DNA of 17,840 nt, taken from Burkholderiales bacterium (GTDB lineage Bacteria; Pseudomonadota; Gammaproteobacteria; Burkholderiales; SG8-39). The notes under the pieces were generated by a model. It was not told the DNA's origin. It worked only from the letters and a program-made list of their open reading frames with translations, and made no database searches. This document shows positions 1,896 to 8,644 of this stretch, in pieces. A program made the position numbers and the translations under genes. The DNA lies in NCBI GenBank assembly GCA_029266935.1, contig JAQSVY010000012.1, positions 1-17,840 on the forward strand, in the 5' to 3' direction. Position 1 is the stretch's first letter, and each line of letters opens with the position of its first letter.

Positions 1896-1920
1896 GCGGT
1901 CAGCCCTGCGGGCTGGCCGC
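1896..1920. terminator. Hairpin at convergent gene junction, possible bidirectional terminator
   Basis: An 11-bp inverted repeat with a three-base loop: arms GCGGTCAGCCC and GGGCTGGCCGC around TGC, interrupted only by one G-U-type pair. It begins one base after the LysR stop and includes the last codons of the dioxygenase gene. Because the two genes converge here, it could end both transcripts. There is no T-tract on either side, so it is not a classical intrinsic terminator. Confidence 0.35.
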
Positions 1921-2649
1921 CATCGTTTCACAGTATTCCCTGAGGTCGTCGGCGATATGGGGCGGGCAGACGCCGCATTCCCGGTTCCCGGGCACGGCGT
2001 GGTCGATGAATTTCGGGTAGGGCAGCTTGAGCTCGCGCATGATCGCGACGAATTCCGCGAGGCTGCGATCGCCACCCAGGCGGGGGTTGCGACTGCGCTC
2101 CTGGGCGATCGTCGAAACGCGCCGTTGCTGGTAGTCGTGCGCGGGATAGACCAGCGTGTCTTCGGGGAGCGTGAACAGCCGCTCCCGCACGCTGCGGTAC
2201 AGCGTCGCCGCGTCGCCGTTCTGGAAATCGGTACGGCCGCAGCCATCGATGAGCAACGCATCACCGGTCAGGACCCGTCCGTCGACGAGGTACGAGAAGT
2301 GGTCGTCCGTATGCCCGGGAGTGAAGAGCGGCAAGAGCGCGATGCCACCGAGGCGCACTTCCCTTCCCTCCTCGATCCTCAGGTCTGCGCACCCTGCCCG
2401 CGAGGGCGCAGGGTAGGCGATGCGGCTGCCCGTCTCTCGCTTCAGCCGCAGCGCCGCGGTGATGTGATCGGCGTGGACGTGGGTCTCGACGGTGTACGCC
2501 AGCTTGAGCGACAGAGCGTTTAGGGCGGCGAGATCGCGCTCCCACGCAGGCATGACCGGGTCGATGAGCAGAGCCTGCCCGGTCTCCTCGCAGCCGAGGA
2601 GATAGGTGTAGGTGCTGGAGACCGGTTCGAAGAGTTGGCGGAAGATCAT
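1900..2649 (-). CDS. ETHE1-like sulfur (persulfide) dioxygenase, MBL fold
   Basis: 249 residues, the usual length for bacterial ETHE1/SDO proteins. These mononuclear-iron enzymes oxidise glutathione persulfide with O2 to sulfite and glutathione. The MBL metal motif THVHADHIT is at 56-64, His113 lies in TPGHTDDH, Asp130 in LTGDALLIDGCGRTDFQNGD, and His171 in YPAHDY. The GCGRTDFQ segment is characteristic of ETHE1 rather than glyoxalase II. The open frame extends upstream through sat, but homology begins at MIFRQLFEP, fixing the start at 2649. No signal peptide is seen, so it is cytoplasmic. It follows sat by 32 bases on the same strand. Sulfite made here could feed APS formation and sulfate release through Sat, although no APS reductase genes are in the window. 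Confidence 0.92.
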   Translation of the reverse strand: MIFRQLFEPVSSTYTYLLGCEETGQALLIDPVMPAWERDLAALNALSLKLAYTVETHVHADHITAALRLKRETGSRIAYPAPSRAGCADLRIEEGREVRLGGIALLPLFTPGHTDDHFSYLVDGRVLTGDALLIDGCGRTDFQNGDAATLYRSVRERLFTLPEDTLVYPAHDYQQRRVSTIAQERSRNPRLGGDRSLAEFVAIMRELKLPYPKFIDHAVPGNRECGVCPPHIADDLREYCETMAASPQG

Positions 2650-2681
2650 CCGGATTTGAAGCCCGGACGAGGCGCGAGTTC

Positions 2682-3830
2682 CTAAAGCCCGGCGTAGTAC
2701 GCGCGCAGGACCTCGAGGACTTCGGGCCGGCTGAACTCCGCCGGGACGGCGCTGCCCTCGGACAGCCACTTGCGCAGCTGCGTGCCCGACACCTGCAGCC
2801 TGTCGGCGTCGCCGTGCGGGCAGGTGCGCCCCGAGGCCATGCCGCCGCAGCGGTAGCACCAGAAGGTCACGTCCATCTTCAGCGGCCGGGTCTCGAGCGC
2901 GTCGCGCGGGATCTCGTCGAAGATGCCGTGCGCATCGAAGGGGCCGTAGTAGCTGCCGACGCCGGCGTGGTCGCGGCCCACGACCAGGTGCGAGCAGCCG
3001 TAGTTCTGGCGGAACAGCGCATGCAGCAGCGCCTCGCGCGGCCCCGCATAGCGCATGTCGAGCGGATAGCCGGCCTGCACCACCGTGCCCGCGCGGAAGT
3101 ACTTCTCGATCAGCACGCCGATGGCGCGCGTGCGCACCTCGGCCGGGATGTCGCCCGCCTTGAGGGCCCCCAGCAGCGAGTGCACGAGCACCCCGTCGCA
3201 GGTCTCGATGGCCACCTTGGCGAGGTACTCGTGCGAGCGGTGCATGGGATTGCGCGTCTGGAAGGCGGCGACACGCGACCAGCCCAGCCGTTCGAACTCG
3301 GTACGCGTCTCGGCCGGCGTCATGAACAGCTCGCCGTACTTCTCCCGGAAGCCGCCGTCGGAGAGCACCTTCACCGGCCCGGCGAGGTTCGCCGCCGGTT
3401 GCTGCATCACCATCTTCACGCCAGGATGCGCGGGGTCGGTGGTTTTGAAGACCGACGCGCACTCGTGCGCCTTGTCGATCGCGTACTTCTCCGTGACGCG
3501 CATGGTGGCGAGCAACTCGCCGTCGTCCGGGTCCGCGAGCGCGATCTCGCTGCCCACCGCGACGTCGGCGTCGGTCGACAGCGTGATCGGGATCGGCCAG
3601 AACACGCCCGCGGCGGTCCGGTACCCGTCGCAGACGCCCTGCCAGTCGGCGCGGGTCATGAACCCCTCGAGCGGCGTGAAGCCGCCGATGCCGAGCATGA
3701 CGAGGTCGCCTTTCTCGCGCGAGCTGACGCGGATCGAGGGCAGCGACGCGGCACGCTTGCGCTCGGCGGCCAGCGCCCCGCCCGAAAGCATGAGCGTCCG
3801 CCCGGCCCGGTTTCCTCTATAAAGCAACAT
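2682..3830 (-). CDS. sat: Sulfate adenylyltransferase (ATP sulfurylase)
   Basis: 382 residues. Sat interconverts ATP plus sulfate with APS plus pyrophosphate; in sulfur oxidisers it usually runs towards ATP and sulfate. Diagnostic motifs: [13 protein letters not shown] (about 46-58), [13 protein letters not shown] (nucleotide-binding QxRNPxHxxHE), [16 protein letters not shown], and near the C-terminus CYRCGG followed by CPHG (C-x2-C-x8-C-x-H), a likely zinc site found in homo-oligomeric Sat. No APS-kinase domain is attached. The N-terminus is short: the family's usual PHGG-containing leader of about 10-20 residues is absent, and recognisable alignment begins near SGGALAAE. The start is uncertain: ATG 3830 keeps TLML, while ATG 3791 would leave room for a promoter between this gene and the divergent DsrE gene 26 bases away. 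Probably co-transcribed with the dioxygenase. Confidence 0.93.
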
Positions 3831-3856: not shown

Positions 3857-4279
3857 ATGGAGCGCAGAAGATTCCTGGCGACGATCGGTGCCGTGCCCAT
3901 GCTCGCAGCGGGCTGCGCGCAGATGCAGGGGAAGCAGAAGCAGCAGGTCGTGCTGCAGATCAGCGACGACAACGTGAAGACCTGGCAGACGACCTTCAAT
4001 GTGGTCAACAACCTGGCCAACACCTATGGGAAGGGGAACGTGGAGATCGAGCTCGTCGCTTTCGGCGACGGCATCAACGCGCTCACCTTCGATTCCAAGG
4101 CGGCGAGCCGCATCCCCGGCGCCGTGGGACAAGGCGCCAAAATCATCGCCTGCGAGAACTCCATGACGCGATTCAAGCTCTCCAAGGGAGACATGGCGCC
4201 CGACCTCGTGTACGTTCGCGCCGGCGTGCAGCGCATCATCGAGCGCCAGCGCGAAGGCTGGACGGTGATCCGGCCCTGA
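3857..4279 (+). CDS. DsrE-family lipoprotein, exported
   Basis: 140 residues. The N-terminus MERRRFLATIGAVPMLAAGC combines a twin-arginine start (RRRF) with a lipobox (LAAGC) whose lipidated residue would be Cys20, so the protein should be anchored on the periplasmic side. The rest is a DsrE/DsrF-like fold: VVLQISDDN strand, a helix ending NVVNNLANTYGKG, the VEIELVAFGDGI strand, then KIIACENSMTRFKLSKGDM and the C-terminal VYVRAGVQRIIERQREGW followed by TVIRP. Cys99 in IIACENSM occupies the conserved position of the sulfur-carrying cysteine in DsrE-type sulfurtransferases. It has a strong ribosome binding site and starts the plus-strand run that leads into sox. A role in sulfane-sulfur handling with SoxYZ is inferred from family and context. 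Confidence 0.85.
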   Translation: MERRRFLATIGAVPMLAAGCAQMQGKQKQQVVLQISDDNVKTWQTTFNVVNNLANTYGKGNVEIELVAFGDGINALTFDSKAASRIPGAVGQGAKIIACENSMTRFKLSKGDMAPDLVYVRAGVQRIIERQREGWTVIRP

Positions 4280-4293
4280 CGGGCCGGCGGCAG

Positions 4294-4710
4294 ATGCGCA
4301 GGCTCCTGGCACTGGCTTGTTTCGCCCTTGCGCTGGCCGGCGAGGCCCACGGACAGGCGATTCGGGCCGTCTATCACTTCGCAGATGGCCTGGACCAGGC
4401 GTCGCGCGGCCTGCAGTACTTGCGCAACCACCTGGAGACCGATCCGGACGCCAAGATCGTCGCCGTGGCCCACGCCGCAGGGGTCGATTTCCTGATGAAG
4501 GGCGCGAAGACCGCGAAAGGCAACGAGTATCGGGGCGCAGTCGAGGACCTCGATCTGCAAGGCGTCGAGTTCAGAGTCTGCGAGATCACCCTGCGCGAGC
4601 GCGGCCTGCGGCGCGAGCAGTTTCTTCCCGAGGTGAAGTACGTGGCCTCGGGCGTCGCCGAGATCGCGCGGCTGCAATCGCGCGAGGGCTACGCGTACCT
4701 CAGGCCTTGA
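4294..4710 (+). CDS. DsrE-family protein with Sec signal peptide
   Basis: 138 residues. Residues 1-20 are a Sec-type signal peptide (MRRLLALACFALALAGEAHG) with cleavage near AHG-QA, so a soluble periplasmic protein is expected. The mature part follows the DsrE pattern: AVYHFADGLDQASRGLQYL, AKIVAVAHAAGVDFLMKG, FRVCEITLRERGL with Cys96 at the conserved sulfur-carrier position, and the C-terminal VKYVASGVAEIARLQ, then GYAYLRP. It starts 14 bases after the DsrE lipoprotein gene and precedes soxY by 97 bases. The two DsrE proteins are clearly related but divergent in sequence, which suggests an old duplication or a heteromeric pair. Cytoplasmic DsrE relatives pass sulfur atoms between protein cysteines; the partner here is unknown. 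Confidence 0.85.
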   Translation: MRRLLALACFALALAGEAHGQAIRAVYHFADGLDQASRGLQYLRNHLETDPDAKIVAVAHAAGVDFLMKGAKTAKGNEYRGAVEDLDLQGVEFRVCEITLRERGLRREQFLPEVKYVASGVAEIARLQSREGYAYLRP

Positions 4711-4807
4711 CCGCAGGCGGATAAGCCGATAAAGAGATTTAATATTCGTCGCGGATTTTCGCTGCGCGGGCATATTAATATTCCCACACGAACTGGAGGG
4801 AACAGGC
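4711..4807 (+). promoter_or_regulatory. Probable sox promoter region
   Basis: This 97-base gap is the largest within the plus-strand run and is much richer in A+T than its surroundings. It contains two AT blocks that could serve as -10 elements (TTTAATATT near 4738-4746 and ATATTAATATT near 4772-4782), and a TTGACC at 4707-4712 that overlaps the previous stop codon. No pairing of -35 and -10 is convincing. GGAGGGA at about 4796-4802 is a good ribosome binding site for soxY. Confidence 0.45.
4739..4783 (+). repeat. Pair of 9-base direct repeats TTAATATTC, possible operator
   Basis: TTAATATTC occurs at 4739-4747 and again at 4775-4783, start-to-start distance 36 bases, each containing the palindrome AATATT. 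Exact AT-rich 9-mers repeated within 45 bases are unexpected in DNA this GC-rich. The location just upstream of soxY fits an operator or regulator-binding site. No known consensus is claimed. Confidence 0.4.
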
Positions 4808-5177
4808 ATGATCGCTCAACGAAGAGGGCTGCTGAAGGCGGCCGGCGCGCTCGCGGTGCTCGCGGCGGGACTGCTCAGGCCCATCGCTGCGCTCGCCGCG
4901 ACCTGGAACAAGGACGCAGATCGCCGAGAACGGCGCCGTGGTGCCGATCGAGATCACGAGCAAGATCCCGGGCACGACGTCGATCGCGGTGCTGGTGGAC
5001 AAGAACCCGTATCCCCTGGTGGCGAAGTTCGACTTCATGGAGGGCGCGCTGCCCTTCGTCAAGATCAACGCCAAGATGGGCGAGACTTCCGACGTGCGCG
5101 TGGTTGCCACCGCGGGTGGCAAGCACTACCAGGCCACGAAGGAGATCAAGGTGACCATCGGCGGTTGCGGCGGATAA
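4808..5177 (+). pseudogene. soxY: soxY, disrupted by internal deletion and frameshift
   Basis: SoxY carries the sulfur substrate as a thioconjugate on the cysteine of its C-terminal GGCGG arm. Both ends are here but in different frames. Codons 1-37 from ATG 4808 give a Tat-type signal peptide (AQRRGLLKAAGAL) and the family's mature start ATWNKDA. From about 4917 the continuing SoxY sequence QIAENGAVVPIEITSKIPG is in another frame. It runs to KEIKVTIGGCGG and a TAA at 5175-5177, with the substrate-carrying Cys intact. Compared with usual SoxY proteins, about 30 residues (the F/L-KALG helix and the D-I-x-I-x-A-P strand) are missing at the junction near 4911-4918. The missing length must be 2 modulo 3. 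A GTG at 4938 could restart translation, but without a signal peptide. As given, no functional SoxY can be made. True deletion or assembly error cannot be separated from this sequence. Confidence 0.85.
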
Positions 5178-5190
5178 CGGAGGAACGGAC

Positions 5191-5487
5191 ATGGCAGGAC
5201 CGATGAAAATGCGCGCGACGCTGAACGGGGGCTTCACCGACGTGCGCGTGCTGATGACCCACCCCATGGCGACCGAGCAGCAGACCAAGGGCAAGCCGCA
5301 CTTCATCCAGAACCTCACGGTGAAGCTGAACGGCAAGATTGTGATCGAAGGCGAGATCAGCCAGGCGGTATCGCGCAACCCGGTGTTCAGCTTCCGCCTC
5401 AACGGCGGCGCGAAAGGCGACAAGATCGAGGTGAGCTGGCTCGACAACAAGGGCGACACCAACAAGACCGAAACCGCGGTCGCCTGA
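5191..5487 (+). CDS. soxZ: SoxZ, partner of the SoxY sulfur carrier
   Basis: 98 residues, typical for SoxZ, which forms the SoxYZ heterodimer in the periplasm. Recognisable segments: MKMRATLNGGFTDVRVLMTH, then PMATEQQTKGKPHFIQNLTV, a middle NGKIVIEGEISQAVSRNPVF, and the terminal FRLNGGAKGDKIEVSWLDN. It has no signal peptide, as expected for SoxZ, which is co-exported with the Tat-targeted SoxY. It starts 13 bases after the soxY stop with GGAGGA in the gap. SoxZ is intact with no sign of decay, which is odd if soxY were truly dead, because SoxZ has no known role without SoxY. Confidence 0.95.
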   Translation: MAGPMKMRATLNGGFTDVRVLMTHPMATEQQTKGKPHFIQNLTVKLNGKIVIEGEISQAVSRNPVFSFRLNGGAKGDKIEVSWLDNKGDTNKTETAVA

Positions 5488-5512: not shown

Positions 5513-6304
5513 ATGATGCGCACAGTCATTGGTAGTGCGGCGCTCGCGCTGGCATTCGCGCCTGCGCTCGCGCAGCAGTCGCCGTACGCCGAGTACCAGC
5601 GCATGGCCAGGGAGAGCGCTCCGGTGGAGCTGTTCGAGCTGGCCGGCGAAGAGGCCTGGAAGAAGAAGCAGGGGCCGAAGAACGTATCGCTCGAGCAATG
5701 CGACCTCGGCCAGGGCCCGGGCGTGCTCAAGGGGGCCTACGCCTCGCTGCCGCGCTACTTCAAGGACACCGACCGGGTCATGGACCTCGAGACCCGGCTC
5801 CTGCACTGCATGATGACGCTGCAGGGCCGCAGCCGCGAGGAGGCGACCAAGCGCGTCTTCGGCAATGCCGACAATGCCTCCGAGATGGAAGTGCTGTCGG
5901 CCTACATCGCCGGCCATTCGCATGGCATGCCGATGCGGCCGGGCACCTCGCACGCGAAGGAAAAAGCCGCCTACCAACTCGGCCAGAAGCTTTTCTTCCA
6001 TCGCGCCGGCTCGTGGGACTTCTCCTGCGCATCCTGCCACGGCGAGGAAGACAAGCGCATCCGCATGTCCGGGCTGCCGGTGCTCTACAAGCCCCAGGTG
6101 GCTCGGCCGCTCATCGCCACGTGGCCGGCCTACCGGGTGTCCAACAGCCAGTTCAAGACGATGCAGTGGCGCATGAACGACTGCTACCGCCAGATGCGCA
6201 TGCCCGAGCCGATGTTCGGCTCGGAGGCGATGGTGTCCCTCGTCCACTTCCTGACCGTCACCGCGCAGGGCGAGCCCTACCGCGGGCCGGCGATCAAGCG
6301 CTGA
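5513..6304 (+). CDS. soxA: SoxA, c-type cytochrome subunit of SoxAX
   Basis: 263 residues. SoxAX joins thiosulfate to the SoxY cysteine in the periplasm. Signal peptide 1-20 ends in ALA-QQ. The single haem motif is CASCH at 172-176, and Cys224 in MNDCYRQMRMPEP is the conserved cysteine that ligates the catalytic haem and can carry a persulfide. The first haem site of dihaem SoxA is absent: Cys63 (EQCDLGQGPG) and Cys99 (LLHCMM) remain and may form a disulfide, so this is a monohaem type. AAGGAGGAGG lies immediately upstream; ATG 5513 and ATG 5516 are both possible and 5516 has the better spacing. The gene lies between soxZ and soxX, with 11 bases before soxX. Confidence 0.95.
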   Translation: MMRTVIGSAALALAFAPALAQQSPYAEYQRMARESAPVELFELAGEEAWKKKQGPKNVSLEQCDLGQGPGVLKGAYASLPRYFKDTDRVMDLETRLLHCMMTLQGRSREEATKRVFGNADNASEMEVLSAYIAGHSHGMPMRPGTSHAKEKAAYQLGQKLFFHRAGSWDFSCASCHGEEDKRIRMSGLPVLYKPQVARPLIATWPAYRVSNSQFKTMQWRMNDCYRQMRMPEPMFGSEAMVSLVHFLTVTAQGEPYRGPAIKR

Positions 6305-6315
6305 GGAGACCGAAA

Positions 6316-6942
6316 ATGAGAAGACTCCTGCTCCTTCCCGCCGTCGTGGCGGTCGCCGCCTGCACCACGGCACCGAGCGTCAGCGAGCACCCCAAGCCCT
6401 CGCCGCGCGAACTGGAAGAAGTCACCGCCGTCCTCAAGCGCGATTTCCGCGCGCGCGGCCAGGCGACGATGGACCGAGTCGAGCTCGACGAGGTGCAGCG
6501 GCTGTGCAACCTGCACGCCGACAACCCGCCCGCCGAGCTCGCGCGGCCGATCGAGGAGACGCAGCTCAAGGCCATCCCCTTCCCGGCCGGCAGCATGATG
6601 GGGGACTGGAAGAACGGCGAGAAGATCGCGCAGAGCGGCCGCGGCGCCATGTGGAGCGACAAGCCCGGCGTGCAGGAGGGCGGCAGCTGCTACAACTGCC
6701 ACCAGATCTCGCCGAAGGAGACGGCGTTCGGCACGATCGGGCCGAGCCTCGCCGGCTACGGCAAGACCCGCGGCAACCGCCCGGAGATCCAGCGATACGT
6801 CTACGGCAAGATCTACAACTCCAAGGCGTACAACGCCTGCTCGCAGATGCCTCGCCTCGGCCACTCGAAGACGCTCAACGAGCAGCAGATCAAGGACCTC
6901 GTCGCGCTGCTCCTCGACCCGGCGTCGCCGGTGAACCAGTAG
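6316..6942 (+). CDS. soxX: SoxX, c-type cytochrome subunit of SoxAX (lipoprotein-like)
   Basis: 208 residues. SoxX is the electron-accepting cytochrome of the SoxAX complex. The haem motif is CYNCH at 125-129 and Met178 in CSQMPRLGH is the probable axial ligand. GTIGPSLAGYGKTRG is the usual segment after the haem. The N-terminal MRRLLLLPAVVAVAAC fits a lipoprotein signal with Cys16 as the lipidated residue. The mature protein has an extra N-terminal region (about 20-95) with one Cys (Cys64), as in the longer SoxX variants. The open frame extends far upstream through soxA, but ATG 6316 after GAGGAGA gives the signal peptide and is the clear start. Confidence 0.94.
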   Translation: MRRLLLLPAVVAVAACTTAPSVSEHPKPSPRELEEVTAVLKRDFRARGQATMDRVELDEVQRLCNLHADNPPAELARPIEETQLKAIPFPAGSMMGDWKNGEKIAQSGRGAMWSDKPGVQEGGSCYNCHQISPKETAFGTIGPSLAGYGKTRGNRPEIQRYVYGKIYNSKAYNACSQMPRLGHSKTLNEQQIKDLVALLLDPASPVNQ

Positions 6943-6949
6943 CGCGGGA

Positions 6950-8644
6950 TTGCGGCGCCGGGATTTTCTTCGCCTTCTTGCAAGCGCCGCCGCGGCTGGC
7001 GCCTCGCTGCGGCCGGGGCTCTCCCAGGCGCAGGCGGCCGACGAGCTCTACGAAGTCCCGCCCTTCGGCAATGTGAGCCTGCTGCACGTCACCGACGTGC
7101 ACGCGCAGCTCTTGCCGGTATATTTCCGCGAGCCCAGCGTCAATATCGGCGTAGGCGGCGCCTCGGGCCGCCCGCCGCACGTCGTCGGCGCGCCCTTCCT
7201 CGAGTTCTTCTCGATCGAAAGGCAATCCGCGCGGGCGCATGCCTTCACTCACCTCGACTTCGAGCCGCTGGCGCGGCGCTATGGCAAGGTCGGTGGCTAC
7301 GCGCATCTCGCCACGCTGGTGGAGCGCCTGCGTGGCTCGCGCCCGCACGCGCTGCTGCTTGACGGCGGCGACAGCTGGCAGGGCTCGGCGACCTCGCTGT
7401 GGACGCGGGGGGCGGACATGATCGGCGCGCAGAAACGCCTCGGCGTCGATCTCATGACCGCGCACTGGGAGTTCACTTACGGCGCCGAGCGCGTCCGGCA
7501 GGCGGTCGACAAGGAGCTTGCGCCCATGGAGTTCCTGGCGCAGAACGTGAAGACCGCCGACTTCGAGGACCCGGTGTTCAAGCCCTATAGCCTGCGCACC
7601 GTCGGCGGCGTCGCGCTCGCGGTGATCGGCCAGGCGTTCCCGTATACGCCGATCGCCAACCCGCGCCACATGGTCCCCGACTGGACCTTCGGCATCCAGG
7701 AGCCCCGCCTGCAGCAGCTCATCGACGAGGTGCGGGCGAAGGGCGCGCAGGCCGTGGTGCTGCTGTCCCACAACGGCATGGACGTCGACCTGAAGCTCGC
7801 CTCGCGGGTGCGCGGCCTGGATGCGATCCTCGGCGGCCACACGCACGACGGCGTGCCGCGCCCGGTGCAGGTCGGCAGGACCGTTGTCACCAATGCCGGC
7901 TCCAACGGCAAGTTCCTCGCCGTGCTCGACTTGCAGGTGGGTGCCGGCGGCGTGCGCGACCACCGCTACCGCCTGCTGCCGGTCTTCTCCAACCTCCTGC
8001 CGCCGGACCGCGCGATGGCGCAGTACATCGAGGACGTGCGCAAGCCGTTCCAGACCAAGCTGCAGGAGCGACTCGGCGTCAACGAAACCCTGCTCTACCG
8101 GCGCGGGAACTTCAACGGCACCTGGGACCAGCTGATGCTAGAGGCGCTGCTGCAGGAGAAAGGCGCCGAGATCGCCTTCTCGCCGGGCTTCCGCTGGGGC
8201 ACGACCCTGCTGCCCGGCGACGCGATCACCTTCGAGCACGTCATGGACCAGACGGCGATCACCTACCCTCATTCGACGCTGAGCGAGCTCACCGGCGAGC
8301 AGGTCAAGGTGATCCTCGAGGACGTGGCCGACAACCTCTTCAATCCCGATCCCTACCTGCAGCAGGGAGGAGACATGGTGCGCGTGGGCGGAATGACCTA
8401 TGCCTGCGATCCGCACGCACGGATCGGCGCACGCATCTCCGACATGAGGCTGCGGGGCAAGCCGCTCGATCCGGCGCGGCGCTACAAGGTGGCGGGATGG
8501 GCGCCAGTCGCCGAAGGCGCGAGCGGCGAGCCGATCTGGGAGCTCGTCGCACGCTACCTGCGCGCACGCAAGTCTGTCGGGCCTCTGACGGTGAATCTTC
8601 CGCGTCTCGCCGGCGTTCAAGGTAATCCTGGTATTTCGCAGTAA
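6950..8644 (+). CDS. soxB: SoxB, thiosulfohydrolase
   Basis: 564 residues, the normal length. SoxB is the periplasmic dimanganese enzyme that hydrolyses the sulfate group from the SoxY S-thiosulfonate. It belongs to the 5'-nucleotidase family. The Tat signal RRRDFLRLL is at 2-10. Metal and active-site motifs: TDVHAQLLP with Asp49 and His51, DGGDSWQGS (138-145), HWEFTYG (172-178), LLSHNGMD with His274, and GGHTHDGVP (295-303). The only available start that retains the Tat motif is TTG at 6950, because an in-frame stop lies at 6932-6934 and no other start codon lies between. The gap to soxX is seven bases. A macAB-like gene set follows after 11 bases, so soxB is unlikely to be the last gene of its transcript. 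Confidence 0.96.
   Translation: MRRRDFLRLLASAAAAGASLRPGLSQAQAADELYEVPPFGNVSLLHVTDVHAQLLPVYFREPSVNIGVGGASGRPPHVVGAPFLEFFSIERQSARAHAFTHLDFEPLARRYGKVGGYAHLATLVERLRGSRPHALLLDGGDSWQGSATSLWTRGADMIGAQKRLGVDLMTAHWEFTYGAERVRQAVDKELAPMEFLAQNVKTADFEDPVFKPYSLRTVGGVALAVIGQAFPYTPIANPRHMVPDWTFGIQEPRLQQLIDEVRAKGAQAVVLLSHNGMDVDLKLASRVRGLDAILGGHTHDGVPRPVQVGRTVVTNAGSNGKFLAVLDLQVGAGGVRDHRYRLLPVFSNLLPPDRAMAQYIEDVRKPFQTKLQERLGVNETLLYRRGNFNGTWDQLMLEALLQEKGAEIAFSPGFRWGTTLLPGDAITFEHVMDQTAITYPHSTLSELTGEQVKVILEDVADNLFNPDPYLQQGGDMVRVGGMTYACDPHARIGARISDMRLRGKPLDPARRYKVAGWAPVAEGASGEPIWELVARYLRARKSVGPLTVNLPRLAGVQGNPGISQ

Follow-up and report, generated by a model that had tools for sequence, protein, structure and literature searches.

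A soxY gene split over two frames in a Burkholderiales metagenome bin: probably a local assembly error

The sox cluster and the lesion in soxY

The window, the whole stretch of DNA analysed here, is the entire contig C200 (17,840 bases, without any N) of metagenome bin G000, which holds 2,188,172 bases in 375 contigs and is 56.53% complete and 0.74% contaminated. It carries a sox cluster in which soxY is split over two reading frames, one base apart, with the following features.

4808 to 4918, plus strand: 5′ piece of soxY, Tat-type signal peptide and ATWNKDA (translation MIAQRRGLLKAAGALAVLAAGLLRPIAALAATWNKDA)
4914 to 4918, plus strand: soxY join, 89 bases absent compared with relatives (DNA alignment with L002 and L003)
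4917 to 5177, plus strand, +1 frame: 3′ piece of soxY, GGCGG arm and stop (translation, PF13501, identity to relatives)
4808 to 5206, plus strand: zero frame from the soxY start, 132 residues, not SoxY past the join
4938 to 5177, plus strand: sole ORF of the 3′ frame with a common start, GTG, 79 residues, without signal peptide
5191 to 5487, plus strand: soxZ, intact (TIGR04490, 95.8 bits, cut-off 76)
5513 to 6304, plus strand: soxA, intact (TIGR04484, 237.7 bits, cut-off 110)
6316 to 6942, plus strand: soxX, intact (TIGR04485, 88.2 bits, cut-off 61)
6950 to 8644, plus strand: soxB, intact (TIGR04486, 858.4 bits, cut-off 550)

Translation places the signal peptide and the carrier domain in different frames, with the one-base offset at 4914–4918. 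The 3′ piece reads from 4917 as QIAENGAVV and runs to the carrier arm, which is present as the terminal KVTIGGCGG, and to the stop at 5175–5177. In the DNA alignment, both relatives that cover the join (L002 and L003) place a gap of 89 bases, that is 29 codons plus 2 bases, after position 4914, while L011 is uninformative because its sequence is cut short at that spot. Some relatives, L003 and L034 for example, carry CGC at both ends of the missing stretch, so the join may fall at any position within 4914–4918. These data confirm the lesion described in an earlier note on this DNA, which had put the loss at about 30 codons, 2 modulo 3, with a junction at 4911–4918; the note's further argument, that a 2-modulo-3 loss is typical of a simple deletion, cannot decide between a deletion in the organism and a faulty assembly. 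The zero frame is free of stops before 5204 and terminates at 5206, inside soxZ, whose first base lies 15 bases upstream. In the 3′ frame, no ATG, GTG or TTG occurs from the upstream stop at 4833 to 4917, and a promoter and terminator scan of window positions 4600–5300 found none.

The 3′ piece matches PF13501 over profile positions 23–112 of 112 with 97.4 bits (cut-off 28.4), and it scores 116.5 bits against the SoxY equivalog TIGR04488, below the cut-off of 125. All 86 residues of this piece are identical to the full-length environmental proteins P0003, P0004 and P0005, and the 37 residues of the 5′ piece are identical to P0123 at 36 positions and to P0006 and P0007 at 35. Judged by this identity to relatives, signs of decay are absent from both pieces. 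The spacer from W-N-x-x-A to x-IAENG, a pattern fitted by 188 of 258 SoxY proteins, measures 29 residues in 185 of those 188. The absent residues 38–66 comprise a helix (43–50) and a strand (61–64) in an AlphaFold2 model of P0006 (26 sequences, mean pLDDT 80). Across 134 proteins, the missing stretch is more variable than the 3′ part (mean entropy 0.86 versus 0.27 bits), and this variability is a possible source of an assembly tangle. A hairpin in this stretch was considered as well: the DNA of the segment in nine relatives gave fold z-scores of −0.2 to −4.3, as measured against mononucleotide shuffles only, and this was given no weight.

A survey of 399 genomes from the order found SoxY matches in 218 and gave at least 150 places, counted by hand. 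Among the matches listed, an open frame shorter than 151 residues was seen at 2 of 150 places, the window (113) and G028:C104 (116), and the latter frame sits 90 bases from its contig end. When the 132-residue junction frame was used as a query, 27 proteins were found, all of them SoxY of 150–153 residues, and the junction frame was not met in any of these. The cluster of the 79-residue ORF, P0139, has four member sequences and one contig, the window's own. Short SoxY ORFs were considered as further broken genes: those of at most 82 residues account for 24 of the best 120 of 173 proteins, but many of these short ORFs may be contig starts.

Three environmental proteins are unusual in the same region. 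P0140 and P0196 lack some of the 29 residues that are absent here, with the frame kept, and P0123 is a mosaic SoxY whose two halves each resemble a different lineage most closely, with the switch at the conserved QIAENG block: its 5′ half is close to the window's lineage and identical to P0007 at 65 of 66 positions, while its 3′ half, nearer to another lineage, is identical to P0006 at 71 of 86 and to P0149 at 78 of 86. These proteins may be further assembly faults at the border of variable and conserved sequence, or may reflect real recombination and deletion.

The genes around soxY align with the loci of relatives, and soxZ, soxA, soxX and soxB, which the earlier note had judged free of decay, indeed all exceed their curated cut-offs. 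Upstream of soxY (window 3857–4710) lie two small genes, one of 140 residues that begins with a twin-arginine-like sequence and one of 138 residues; they had no NCBIfam match at 1e-10 and may be DsrE-like, and L039 has both next to soxY as well. Divergent to the sox cluster, on the minus strand at window 1903–3830, are an MBL-fold hydrolase, whose best NCBIfam match is GloB-like and below the cut-off, and a sulfate adenylyltransferase (489.4 bits, cut-off 387). A full SoxC was not found in the bin, where a partial match lies at G000:C148:3707-4210 (99.4 bits, cut-off 420); a SoxC match over the cut-off is present in 7 of the 11 genomes of the genus set.

Broken genes elsewhere in the bin

As a control for soxY, we asked if its bin also contains breaks in genes that a cell cannot do without. 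A codon-model frame scan was therefore applied to 53 contigs including C200 (305,225 bases; the 52 others, about 287 kb, belong to 55 taken whole), and breaks were verified by homology of the separate pieces. Eight flags were raised in 7 of the 53 contigs, and four were verified as breaks within genes (C40, C150 and twice C310).

L160 (G000:C310), 191-1739: CTP synthase, broken, 83-base loss (profile pieces, DNA alignment)
L160 (G000:C310), 2593-3826: enolase, broken, 10-base tandem duplication (DNA alignment)
L154 (G000:C150), 3911-4529: ABC permease, broken, about 74 bases short (profile coordinates)
L087 (G000:C40), 43-1414: TctA transporter, broken, about 140 bases short (profile coordinates)

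The flags on C100 and C320 were rejected as gene breaks, being boundaries between different genes, and that on C196 is probably a gene boundary too. The flag on C300 falls between DsrK and DsrL-like genes. At this locus (L101, G000:C300), DsrK has as its neighbour an NAD(P)-binding protein that resembles DsrL (PRK12771), which shows that genes of a Dsr pathway are present in the bin. As a control, the loci of nine relatives (110,280 bases) yielded one flag, in L034, which was a false call since soxA aligns at that site without a gap. The soxY break, with its short 5′ piece, escaped the scan, whose counts are therefore lower bounds. With soxY included, at least five breaks in 305 kb make a single break in an 18-kb window unremarkable.

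CTP synthase and enolase are essential genes, and cells cannot live without them. Both are broken on C310, a contig of 3.8 kb. The CTP synthase matches its profile over positions 5–112 and then 142–531 in another frame, a gap also seen against solved structures, and the DNA alignment gives a deficit of 83 bases compared with all four same-genus relatives. This loss resembles the 89-base loss of soxY in size and kind. In enolase, the frame changes at a 10-base tandem duplication that is absent from all four same-genus relatives. Among the ten other same-genus genomes, the enolase site is spanned by a single frame in all ten and the CTP synthase site in eight, G008 having no CTP synthase match. 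In G010, CTP synthase is split across two contig ends (G010:C134:2-358 and G010:C100:5-1228, profile 120/128), close to the point where it is broken in G000. The relatives have one CTP synthase each, and no unbroken copy of either gene was found in the bin, where the only extra piece is a 43-residue enolase end on C276. Unless the missing part of the genome holds intact copies, living cells cannot credibly have lost both enzymes, and the assembly therefore contains local errors. The two remaining breaks interrupt the ABC permease on C150 (profile 9–103, then 131–237) and TctA on C40 (profile 1–207, then 263–423). The four verified breaks are thus of more than one type: three losses and a small duplication.

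The order of the contigs was also analysed. From C189 to C211, 15 of the 23 contigs form a series of non-increasing length, which none of 20,000 shuffles reached, and C200, with its 17,840 bases, stands in this length-sorted run between contigs of 3,610 and 3,595 bases. Contigs too long for their rank may be the product of joining that followed numbering; alternatively, the order could come from two lists that were interleaved. Verified breaks occur in none of the 29 contigs listed beforehand as length-ordered and in 3 of the 23 others (4 of 24 with the window), a weak contrast (about 0.08 by hand for 3/23 against 0/29) as the 23 include some of indeterminate order. Since the 29 length-ordered contigs are free of verified breaks, the error rate is uneven across the bin.

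Origin of the soxY break

Because essential genes are similarly broken elsewhere in the bin, the soxY break is most likely an assembly mistake, and we give a probability of roughly 0.85 to its being a local error, of which the bin holds several. A wrong assembly was one of four options that the earlier note had left side by side, and the broken essential genes now make it the best supported. The lesion itself, its absence from relatives, the intact neighbours and the two broken essential genes are direct observations. The genes broken elsewhere in the bin support this reading, as do the lack of decay in both soxY pieces and the failure to meet the 132-residue junction frame in another sequence. 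The assembler, or a later joining step, would have fused two stretches of one gene at a 3-base overlap and dropped 89 bases, and the organism itself would most likely have an ordinary full-length soxY within an ordinary soxYZAXB cluster. That the soxY join has the same origin as the other breaks is inferred, and so is the stage of assembly that produced it. The position of C200 in the length-sorted run fits a composite contig, while other explanations for it exist. Several observations weigh against an assembly error: a 3-base overlap is expected from a real deletion as well, the window contains no N, the four other breaks are of mixed type (three losses, one duplication), none of the 29 length-ordered contigs has a verified break, and the in-frame losses of P0140 and P0196 could mean that the segment is truly prone to deletion.

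We regard it as unlikely that the strain has undergone a real, very recent 89-base deletion in soxY without a second copy. In that case, no SoxY would be exported, because translation in the 3′ frame could begin only at a start that yields a 79-residue piece lacking a signal peptide. SoxZ, which bears no export signal and presumably leaves together with SoxY, would stay behind, and thiosulfate oxidation by the Sox system would stop. The frame analysis, in which only the 79-residue ORF can be started in the 3′ frame, is consistent with such a loss, as are the short bases common to both ends and a 3′ part unchanged from three full-length relatives, which is what a very young loss would show. Decay of an idle soxY or of its partners was not seen (86 of 86 residues identical, partners over their cut-offs), but a very recent loss would look alike. 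The consequence would be large, as in Bradyrhizobium SoxY1 is indispensable to thiosulfate oxidation (PMC5748708) and in Hyphomicrobium no thiosulfate is oxidised without SoxXA and SoxYZ (PMC11582611). On the other hand, the CTP synthase and enolase breaks demonstrate that the assembly of this bin makes such errors, and among the sequences found no other carries the junction frame. It is improbable that we are looking at a natural knock-out caught before decay, in a strain where a genuine 89-base deletion has only just removed SoxY and the rest of the Sox cluster is kept. If this were true, SoxXA, SoxB and SoxZ would be idle or serve another carrier, the losses in P0140 and P0196 would mark a deletion-prone segment of soxY, and the locus would offer a natural test of how a Sox cluster functions without SoxY.

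A real but harmless deletion, with the sulfur carried by a further soxY or soxYZ at some other genomic site, seems very improbable. A second, distant SoxY place does exist in some relatives, for example G007, G075, G077 and G081, and up to five soxY copies are possible in symbiotic sulfur oxidisers (PMC11237559). However, 8 of the 9 same-genus genomes with a match, the window's genome included, have one SoxY place, and the bin has a single place each for SoxY, SoxZ and SoxB. The search of the bin thus found no second soxY of the kind that the earlier note had envisaged, and no second soxZ or soxB, which says little at 56.5% completeness: with nearly half of the genome absent from the bin, a missing second copy is weak evidence. 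That soxY works as it stands, by ribosomal frameshifting at the join or as a shorter SoxY, is hardly to be expected. The zero frame is indeed open up to its stop, and P0140 and P0196 have in-frame losses in the same stretch. Against this, no slippery motif was recognised at 4908–4920 (by eye), the 29-residue stretch is kept in 185 of 188 relatives, and the product would lack the region modelled as helix and strand in P0006.

The loss of a carrier protein would alter the sulfur metabolism predicted for the organism. The claim that soxY function is lost and that the Sox cycle should stop here is unsupported, since the same bin also breaks CTP synthase and enolase and has no unbroken copies of them. 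No claim that the cycle stops, or that it runs without SoxY, should rest on contig C200. Frame breaks in metagenome bins are easily mistaken for gene loss, and a look at the essential genes of the same bin is an inexpensive safeguard before any gene is declared a pseudogene; for soxY, this control points to the assembly.

Comparison with known systems

In comparison with canonical SoxY (TIGR04488, PF13501; structures 2nnc, 2oxg, 2ox5 and 4uwq), the window likewise has a Tat-type signal peptide, the QIAENG block and the GGCGG arm, and the gene is placed directly before soxZ in a soxYZAXB cluster. It differs in the 89 absent bases, the changed frame and the 3′ piece that scores below the equivalog cut-off.

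Uncorrected local assembly errors in metagenome-assembled genomes are described in a review (PMC7111523) as spreading in the form of incorrect protein genes; its authors suspect one assembler in particular, and the test given there for a local error is the lack of support from even one read. That test rests on reads, whereas the present case is known from assembled contigs alone. In line with the errors described there, the window has one probably faulty spot in a protein gene within an otherwise good contig, and the bin contains several such spots, with essential genes among them.
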